Of a DNA stretch of 44,255 nucleotides, positions 26,943 through 34,497 are shown piece by piece (within the stretch, counting starts at the first letter, position 1; each line of letters begins with the position of its first letter). Source of the DNA: Microcaldota archaeon (lineage in GTDB: Archaea > Micrarchaeota > Micrarchaeia > Norongarragalinales > UBA97). The position numbers were made by a program, and so were the translations under genes. Where the stretch lies: positions 69,448 to 113,702 of the forward strand of contig JACQBR010000012.1 in assembly GCA_016194335.1 (NCBI GenBank), read 5' to 3'. The notes under the pieces were generated by a model. That model searched no databases. It had not been told where the DNA came from and saw only the letters and a program-made list of their open reading frames with translations.

Positions 26943-27039
26943 TTATAGCAAACCAAGAAAGTCTTGCGGCAATCTTATCTTGGTTTGCAACTAGCGGATT
27001 GCAATGTGGCATTCGCATTACTTTTTCAATCCGCTATAA
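26943..27039 (+). repeat. 97-nt two-hairpin element, copy 1
   Basis: Layout: outer arms TTATAGC and GCTATAA (26943-26949 and 27033-27039); hairpin A GCAAACCAAGA/TCTTGGTTTGC, a perfect 11-bp stem (26948-26958, 26978-26988) with a 19-nt loop; linker AACTA; hairpin B GCGGATTG/CAATCCGC (26994-27001, 27027-27034) with a 25-nt loop. It matches copy 2 (34201-34297) in length, order, outer arms, the loop motif AAGTCTTGCG and the ACTA linker, while stem bases differ with compensation. It sits between the YbaK gene and the P-type ATPase. Function unknown: structured RNA, mobile element or recombination site. Strand is arbitrary. Confidence 0.75.
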
Positions 27040-27095: not shown

Positions 27096-29703
27096 GTGGA
27101 ATTCGGGCCTTTAGATTACTACTCGCGCCTCCCGGCGGACGGTGTCCTTAGGGAACTGCGCACGAGCGGGAATTTGGGCCTCACGGAAAGCGAGGCGCGC
27201 AGGAGGATTGCCCACTTCGGGAAGAACGAGGTCGAGGCGGAAAGCGAGGAGACGCCCCTATCGGAATTCCTACACACTTTCCGCAACCCCCTCGTTACCG
27301 TGCTGATTGTCGCGGCGGCCGTCTCGGCGCTTCTGGGGGAAGTTACCGAGCCCATCATCATCCTTACGATTGTGCTTGCGAGCTCGGCACTCGGCGTTTG
27401 GCAGGAGCATTCGGCCAACGACGCGGTGAAGAAGCTCAAGAGCCTCGTGGCGGTGACCGCCACGGTAATCCGCAACGGCGAGAGGAAGGAAATCCGAACG
27501 CCATCCATCACCGTCGGCGACGTCATCCTCCTTTCCGCCGGCGACCTTGTCCCGGCAGATTGCCGCGTGATTGAGGAGAACGATATTTACGTAAAGCAGT
27601 CGGCAATCACGGGCGAGCCGTTTCCGGTCGAGAAAACCGTCGGAGGGACGGGTGAGGAAAACCGCACGGCTGGAGATGTGCAGATGGCTGATTCTAAAGA
27701 AGAAACTGAGGGGAAGAAGGACAAGACTGGAAATTCGCAGGCGGCCGAAGGTGGGGAGGGAAACGCAGTTCGGGGCCATTGCCAAGGAAGTTGCGGTGGA
27801 GGCGCCGGAGTCGGCTTTCGAAATCGGCGTGCGGGGGCTGGGGATTTCCATCCTGAAAATCACGGTTTTCATCGTGCTCGTAATCTCGCTGCTGAACCTC
27901 TGGCTCCACCGCGGGTTTCTCGAGTCATTAGTGTTCGCAATCGCCGTTGCTGTGGGCCTCACGCCGGAACTGCTTCCAATCATCATGACCGTCACCATGG
28001 CCGCGGGCGCGAAGAACATTGCGGGAAAGGGCGCGATTGTGAAGAAACTGCCGTCCATCCCCAACTTCGGCAGCATGGACGTCCTGTGCACCGACAAGAC
28101 CGGGACGCTTACGGAAGGGAAAATCAGGCTGGTGAAATACATCGACGTAAACGGGGGCGAGAGCGGGGCGGTCTTGCGCCACGCGTTTCTCAACAGCTAC
28201 TTCCAGACGGGAATCAAGAACGCCCTTGACGAGGCGGTGGTCGAGCGGGGAGGCACGGCGGCGCAAGGCGCGGTGAAGGTGGGGGAAATCCCGTTCGACT
28301 TCTCGCGAAAGCGCATCGGAATCGGCGTGAAGCTGGAAGGGAGGCACTACCTCATCACCAAGGGCGCGCCGGAAGAGGTATTCAAAATCTCCACGCACTA
28401 CAGCGAGGGAAACGGGAAAAGCGGCGCTGGCGAGAGGGAAAGCGCGATTGTCGGGAGGGAGAGAAAGCCCCTCACTCCCGAGGCGGTTGAGAAATTCCAC
28501 TCGCTTTTTGAGAAATTGAGTTCAGAGGGCTACAAGGTCCTTGCAATTGCGGTGAAGGAATTGGAAGGGCCCCGCAAGGGAAGGGGCGAGGTCGGGTCGC
28601 TTTCCACGGCGGAAGAGAAGGGAATGGAACTGCTGGGGTTCATCGCGTTTTTCGACCCCCCCAAGCCGACCGCGCGGGCGGCCGTGAGGCGCATCATCGA
28701 GGCGGGGATAGAAATAAAGGTCATCACGGGAGACAACGAGCTCGTTGCGAAGAAGGTGTGCGACGAGGTGGGGCTGCCCGTGAAGGGAGTGATGCTGGGG
28801 AGGGAAATCGAGGGGCTCGGCATTGACGCGCTTGCAGTCAAGGCGCAGAACGCCACGATATTCGCACGCTTCTCCCCCGAGGAGAAACGCAGGGTGATTG
28901 AGGCGCTCAAAGGGGGGCGGGTGGTGGGATACCTCGGCGACGGGATTAACGACGCGCCGTCCCTGCGCGCGGCCGACGTGGGAATCTCGGTGAACAACGC
29001 CGGTGACGTCGCGAAGGAATCGGCGGACATCGTGCTCACGCACAAGAGCCTCTCGGTGCTCATCGACGGGGTTCTCGAGGGCAGGCGCACGTTTGCCAAC
29101 ACCCTCAAGTACGTCCTGACGGGCGTCTCCTCAAATTTCGGCAACATGCTAAGCTTCACCGGCGCTGTGGTGCTCGCGCCGTTCATCCCGATGCTGCCGG
29201 TGCAAATCCTCCTCAACAACCTGCTCTACGACTTTTCGCAGGTGAGCATCCCCTACGACAACGTGGACGGGGAGGACCTCAAAAAACCCAAGCGGTGGAA
29301 CCTCGATTTTGTCGAGAAGTTCATGATTGCCTTCGGCCTGGCAAGTTCCGTGTTCGACCTCATCACGTTCTTCGCCCTTCTCTATGTCTTCAACGCAGCT
29401 GCCCCGCAGTTCCAGACCGGGTGGTTCCTCGAATCGATTGCCACGCAGGCGCTGGTCATCCACGTGATTAGGACGAGAAAAACGCCCTTTGCGCAAAGCT
29501 CGCCCGGCAGGTTCCTGCTGGCCGCAACTGCCGCAGCCGTCGCGCTGGGCTGGCTCATCCCCTACTCCCCCCTCGCGCCGCTCATCGGCTTCACCCCGCT
29601 TCCGGCCCCCGCACTGGCCGCAATTGTGGCGATTACGGCTGCGTACCTCGTTGCCGTCGAGGGGGTGAAGGGATGGTTCTACGCGAGGTGGCCTGTTTAT
29701 TAG
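27096..29703 (+). pseudogene. MgtA-like Mg2+-transporting P-type ATPase, frameshifted
   Basis: A P-type ATPase in two frames. The 5' part (27096 to about 27655) has the N-terminal region, membrane helices 1-2 and the A domain with AITGEPFPVEK. The 3' part (recognisable from 27751 at VGRETQFG, to 29703) has the phosphorylation site CTDKTGTLT, KGAPEEVF, TGDNELVAKK, GDGINDAPSL and the C-terminal helices. FGSMDVLCTDKTG and LLNNLLYDFSQVSIPYDNVD are typical of MgtA-type Mg importers. Between the parts, 95 nt encode a Lys/Glu-rich stretch in any frame, in place of the FMGTxVxSG strand of the A domain, and the frame shifts. GTG 27096 has a TATA box. Likely non-functional unless the shift is a sequence error. 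Confidence 0.85.
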
Positions 29704-34178: not shown

Positions 34179-34200
34179 AACCGCTCTAATAGCAAATCGC

Positions 34201-34297
34201 TTACAGCAAAACAGGAAAGTCTTGCGAAAATGTAATTCCTGCTTTGCTACTAGCGGACTCGGCAAATCACCTGCACAACTTTCCGAGTCCGCTATAA
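34201..34297 (+). repeat. 97-nt two-hairpin element, copy 2
   Basis: Outer arms TTACAGC and GCTATAA (one mismatch to perfect pairing); hairpin A AGCAAAACAGGAA/TTCCTGCTTTGCT (34205-34217, 34236-34248; 12 of 13 pairs) with an 18-nt loop containing AGTCTTGCG; linker ACTA; hairpin B GCGGACTCGG/CCGAGTCCGC (34253-34262, 34283-34292). Same length and order as copy 1. Relative to copy 1, stem A has one A-T to G-C exchange and stem B has T-A to C-G and G-C to C-G exchanges, all compensated. Confidence 0.75.
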
Positions 34298-34317
34298 TTC
34301 TGGAACTTTAGAAGTGC

Positions 34318-34372
34318 GATTTGCAACTAGCGGATTGCTGGCAATGTTTCATTATTTATGCAATCCGATAAG
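34318..34372 (+). repeat. Two-hairpin element, partial copy 3
   Basis: Begins within the 3' arm of hairpin A (ATTTGCAACTAGCGG as in copy 1) and retains hairpin B (CGGATTGC at 34331-34338, GCAATCCG at 34360-34367). It ends in ATAAG; the CT of the outer arm is missing. It follows copy 2 by 20 nt. Confidence 0.65.
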
Positions 34373-34497
34373 TGCAGGTTTTCAAGCAAGCGAGTGCCGC
34401 AGGAGGGCCGCAGTCCGACGAGGCTATCGAGGGTTCCGAAGAACCCGAGACAAGTCAGACCGGCTGACTGTGACGAGCTTGCGAAGAGAAAGTGCAG
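34370..34497 (-). ncRNA. Possible structured RNA, unassigned
   Basis: A 120-nt segment between direct repeats AAGTGCAG (34370-34377, 34490-34497). Closing arms GCAAGC and GCTTGC enclose hairpins GGGTTC/GAACCC and AGTCAG/CTGACT. Read on the minus strand the first has a TTCG loop closed by C-G, the extra-stable cUUCGg tetraloop, which favours that strand. No known family recognised; no promoter identified. It lies downstream of hicA on the minus strand. Confidence 0.4.

Follow-up and report, generated by a model that had tools for sequence, protein, structure and literature searches.

Two 97-nt sequences, at positions 26943-27039 and 34201-34297 of the window (the whole 44,255-nt stretch of DNA analysed here, from a Microcaldota archaeon), raise the question of what kind of element keeps its fold while its stems change. 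We confirmed that the two copies agree in length and in the arrangement of their parts and share a loop starting with AAAGTCTTGCG and an ACTA linker, and that the three compensated stem changes between them are real. A sequence-only reading of this DNA had proposed that structure rather than stem sequence is conserved here, as in a structured RNA, a recombination site or a non-autonomous mobile element. Both copies fold far beyond chance (z = -5.2 and -6.4, with 0 of 200 shuffles as good), about equally well on either strand. The outer arm of copy 2 has a C/A mismatch, and a fourth differing position, in stem A, is C-G in copy 1 and A-T in most other members of copy 2's family (F2 below), but an unpaired A/C in copy 2.

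The host genome (1.18 Mb in 28 contigs, 85% complete) holds three related families of these elements, F1, F2 and F3, of which copy 1 represents F1 and copy 2 represents F2. About five intact F1 copies, 96-100% identical, lie in unrelated sites, and seven F2 copies are 94-100% identical. F3 (TAGCAAATCGCA...TGCAATCCGCTA), 89 bp long, is the commonest of the three with more than 30 copies; its left end alone occurs 36 times in the genome at up to 3 mismatches, against 0 control hits. Blastn searches of the same genome gave 59 matches to F1 and 47 to F2 and F3 together. The ends of the dispersed copies are exact, and 13 of the 29 scored ungapped F3 copies equal the consensus over their full length though their surroundings are unrelated. 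F3 sites lie in long open frames in 11 of 27 cases, compared with 60% of random positions, a preference for intergenic sites that is only mild.

In the window itself one element interrupts another (Table 1). The first 11 bases of F3 precede copy 2, and an identical TAA lies outside both F3 ends, indicating that copy 2 jumped into an F3 element. The "third, partial copy" reported after copy 2 is therefore real as related sequence at 34295-34372, but it is the remainder of the F3 element that copy 2 split. The right terminus of this F3 is worn from CCGCTA to CCGA, and its right hairpin is matched by the single-end covariance model R2 at 34328-34370 on the minus strand with 22.1 bits. The site fits a clean TA duplication only with the loss of one extra base.

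Table 1. Elements and end hairpins in the window (R2, single-end covariance model)
Feature	Position	Strand	Evidence
F1 element (copy 1), 91-bp core TAGC...GCTA	26946..27036	+	TA on each side (26944-26945, 27037-27038)
F1 end hairpin A, left end	26944..26990	+	R2 55.7 bits, E 1.5e-14; sequence itself in the model alignment
F1 end hairpin B, right end	26992..27038	-	R2 39.7 bits, E 1.3e-9; near-identical sequence in the model alignment
F2 element (copy 2), 91-bp core CAGC...GCTA	34204..34294	+	TA-flanked; sits at TTAA of the F3 element
F2 end hairpin A	34202..34249	+	R2 41.8 bits, E 3e-10
F2 end hairpin B	34251..34296	-	R2 46.0 bits, E 1.5e-11
F3 left end (TAGCAAATCGC), cut off by F2	34190..34200	+	Sequence compared with the F3 consensus; TAA duplication 34187-34189
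Rest of the split F3	34295..34368	+	TAA duplication 34369-34371

Adjoining F1, the gene for a cation P-type ATPase (window 27096-29703) spans two frames, with ORF 27096-28229 as its start and ORF 27652-29703 as the rest, so that the gene is either frameshifted or affected by an assembly error.

The flanks of the copies bear directly on how the elements spread. Matching 3-bp flanks, all of the form TNA, surround 24 of 29 F3 copies; with the triplet usage of the flanks taken into account, so many matches have a chance probability of about 6e-10. F1 and F2 elements have TA on both sides, all of the intact F1 copies included; among two-ended elements in other genomes, 35 of 37 are bordered by TA on both sides and the other 2 by a matching TTA. 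At one locus (L072) an F3 element sits inside the loop of an F1 element, where ggcaatcTTAtcttgg has become TTA-F3-TTA. The empty site is here the intact F1 sequence, in which TTA stands once, compared with twice around the F3 insert; a second F3-in-F1 insertion was found at L067. Matching TA or TNA flanks, together with the duplicated TTA at the nested site, indicate transposition with a 2-3 bp stagger, and the suggestion of a recombination site is left unsupported, transposition being what these duplications favour. With near-identical copies dispersed, target sites duplicated and insertions nested, the non-autonomous mobile element has good support. The length of the duplication differs between families, TA for F1 and F2 versus TNA for F3, which counts against the single mechanism proposed below, and the flanking TA of F1- and F2-type copies could partly be the element's own sequence. 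Comparison between three genomes of one genus (65-81% identity) gave no clean empty site, one genome having another element in the same spacer and another an unrelated spacer. Three loci (L007, L008 and L069) hold F1/F3 hybrids (129-bp and inverted chimeras), indicating that copies recombined once one had inserted into another.

An element is built from two end modules in inverted orientation, with no gene between them. A module is composed of TA, TAGC, a variable arm of 6-8 nt, a GAAAGTNNTGCGAC-type loop motif, the complementary arm and GCTA. Since the arms are complementary within each module, each end can form its own hairpin, and since both ends are the same module in opposite orientation, R2 finds the two ends of each window copy on opposite strands. 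Hairpins have TATAGC at their foot, and for the majority of 70 distinct ends TAGC pairs with GCTA. Terminal inverted repeats are present as TAGC..GCTA and the inverted loop motif. The cores of 89-91 bp contain no coding sequence, and long variants of 152-214 nt are too short for a transposase.

The long variants at L213, L214, L217, L219, L220 and L221 (genomes G011 and G023) and at L145:1501-1714 (G027), 155-214 nt in length, carry 2-4 accessory hairpins in a loop and fold at -71 to -112 kcal/mol; between species the connecting bases are kept and the stems differ. When a 204-nt variant was compared between L213 and L220, stem A was found to be largely replaced but still paired, with most of the loop around AAGACGACGAAATAG kept. 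The variable number of accessory hairpins resembles the modular build of pneumococcal BOX elements, whose inner modules also vary in number (PMC3049150), but sequences and host differ, and boxB is present as tandem copies of one module whereas the accessory hairpins here differ from one another in their stems. Solo hairpins, about 47 nt long and bordered by TA at either end, also occur in G011 (L208, L211, L215 and L216), some of them with arms from two different families; they are perhaps deletion products or minimal elements. Chimeras with two non-matching arms are likewise present in related genomes.

The layout was recovered well beyond the host. The whole-element covariance model R1 matched 27 of 246 genomes taken as relatives, the host's own included (E <= 0.01), in a patchy distribution and often in many copies, with a best value of 2e-13 outside the host genome. 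Blastn with F3 against 60 relatives found the host genome only, so that a sequence search alone misses the family and a covariance model is needed. In 84,980 species genomes the exact end pattern was present in 13 stretches, all from MAGs named Micrarchaeota save one labelled 'ainarchaeum', which holds 2 of the 13; no match was obtained in IMG/VR, and the exact mid-element pattern TTTGCAACTAGCGGATTGC matched nothing in either collection. The element is accordingly repetitive in its own genome and present in others, so that the refuting condition set by the sequence-only reading, a lack of further copies or copies with unpaired stems, speaks against a refutation. No description of the family was found in the literature searched, where coverage was partial and the evidence is weak, which agrees with the earlier statement that no named family has this layout.

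Across families and genomes the stems are paired yet free in their letters, which strongly supports the view, first taken from the two window copies, that structure and not stem sequence is conserved. When 30 representative ends were aligned, pairing was seen in 95.2% of stem cells, versus 72.6% after shuffling and 30-42% with slid partners; 84 stem cells were doubly changed against 22 expected, and 10 of 12 pairs had double changes. These figures are descriptive and no strict test because the alignment, drawn from matches to the model, is biased towards the structure, and because related ends do not count as independent. The 70 distinct ends show 41 distinct stem cores. Departures from pairing among them comprise 16 G-U and 18 A-C with no clear strand bias, and therefore give no support for selection on RNA.

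Strong predicted folds and covariation are also what a dispersed structured non-coding RNA or cis-regulatory RNA would display, but such an RNA is highly improbable here. Folding is about equal on both strands, F3 copies sit in F1 elements (L072 and L067), and no common gene context was noted. Rfam gave no match to the elements at the gathering threshold or at E <= 1, its sole weak match (34392-34420) lying outside them. Moreover, stems decay after insertion without compensation: among the F3 stem changes 0 were compensated, 4 were wobbles and 11 were broken. The split window copy, with its left part out of register in the scoring, accounts for 7 of the 15, and without that copy the counts are 0, 3 and 5. 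Since no stem change in F3 was compensated, individual insertions are not preserved as folded RNAs; active or master copies are presumably kept folded.

The proposed step from compensated change to selection on folding is less secure than the changes themselves, since template switching can, in the absence of selection, produce stems as well as compensated changes of several bases (PMC8794818). Switching of the DNA polymerase between inverted-repeat arms would copy changes from one arm to the other and regenerate palindromes without the fold being used or selected, a possibility that we take seriously while doubting it somewhat. The similar numbers of G-U and A-C departures and the unclear strand bias are as expected from the copying of DNA arms, and the accessory hairpins of the long variants have entirely different stem tips. 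However, none of the 15 F3 stem changes is compensated, which argues that arm copying is not fast on the F3 time scale; TAGC/GCTA is also almost invariant, and some loop positions are better kept than the letters of the inner stem. Template switching contests fold recognition only, not the mobile-element reading, and the credence we give it is not exclusive of the explanation that we prefer.

That explanation, which we regard as very probable, is that the family consists of MITE-like non-autonomous transposons with folding ends, moved in trans by a putative TA/TNA-duplicating transposase. A transposase supplied in trans would cut at the outer TAGC/GCTA ends, and the cut element would then insert at a TA or TNA site and leave a duplication of 2-3 bp. 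The enzyme may read the outer TAGC, the loop motif and the folded stem (as a cruciform or single-stranded hairpin), in which case active copies must keep pairing and not stem sequence. More tentative, and on balance rather unlikely, is a new transposition class in which a TA/TNA-duplicating transposase recognises folded hairpins by their conserved loop and by a stem that pairs, whatever its sequence. If the ends must fold without keeping their stem letters yet duplicate the target, structure-based recognition (as in attC, IS608 and REP) would be combined with duplication-forming transposition; fold recognition, if true, would let end sequences diversify without loss of activity and build multi-hairpin elements. 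Descriptions of mobile DNA in DPANN archaea are few, a single paper in the literature searched mentioning Micrarchaeota together with transposable elements. In hairpin evolution, dozens of stems per genome offer a natural data set on selection for folding versus arm copying by template switching.

The ends might instead be recognised in single-stranded form, like those of REP/REPIN or IS200/IS605-derived elements, with an HUH (Y1) transposase as the mover, which we consider improbable. A mobile unit of two inverted hairpins whose stems pair but vary freely is the layout of REPINs and head-to-head REP dimers, and complementary stem changes and heterodimers of differing stems are common to both, as reported for these dimers (PMC3116915, PMC3733652). 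In contrast to them, the present elements have no unpaired GTAG/CGTC tag, carry a conserved GAAAGT.. motif in loops that are longer (about 20-48 nt for most ends), and show the TA/TNA duplication. Insertion of IS200/IS605 elements leaves the target unduplicated, and an IS200/IS605-derived element was rejected since TNA is duplicated, both in the 24 F3 copies with matching flanks and at the F3-in-F1 site.

By the features tested, the element is a MITE. It resembles prokaryotic MITEs such as RUP of Streptococcus pneumoniae, ERIC and the Correia elements in being short, gene-free and strongly folding, with inverted ends, a small duplication at the target and large numbers of dispersed, near-identical copies; it differs from them in that each end is an independent hairpin with a freely varying, paired stem, in its occurrence so far in Micrarchaeota only and in having no recognised parent IS. 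Duplications of TA and of 3-bp TNA are of the IS5/PIF type. The elements share them with the IS5 family (IS1031/IS427 groups) and the MITEs it mobilises, and a three-nucleotide site has been described for the IS1031 group (PMC2516522).

A transposase was sought in the families DDE_Tnp_1 and DDE_3. Three IS5-family transposases are encoded in the host genome; no R2 end hairpin lies near any of these three copies, and TATAGC..GAAAGT ends are absent from them. Assignment as an IS5-family-derived MITE was consequently not adopted, as the ends match none of the three. The DDE_3 search returned no match, and G011 gave 69 end-hairpin matches yet no DDE_Tnp_1 match. No autonomous element with these ends was found in the DDE_Tnp_1 and DDE_3 searches, the host genome being 85% complete. 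Candidate autonomous copies, namely two ends kilobases apart in fetched loci and solitary ends in G011, turned out to be solo hairpins, chimeras and long multi-hairpin variants without a transposase. One host locus (L089:1426-2643, contig C24 of G000) encodes a DDE_Tnp_1 transposase that also has a SWIM zinc finger, a pairing that seems unusual for an IS5-like protein.
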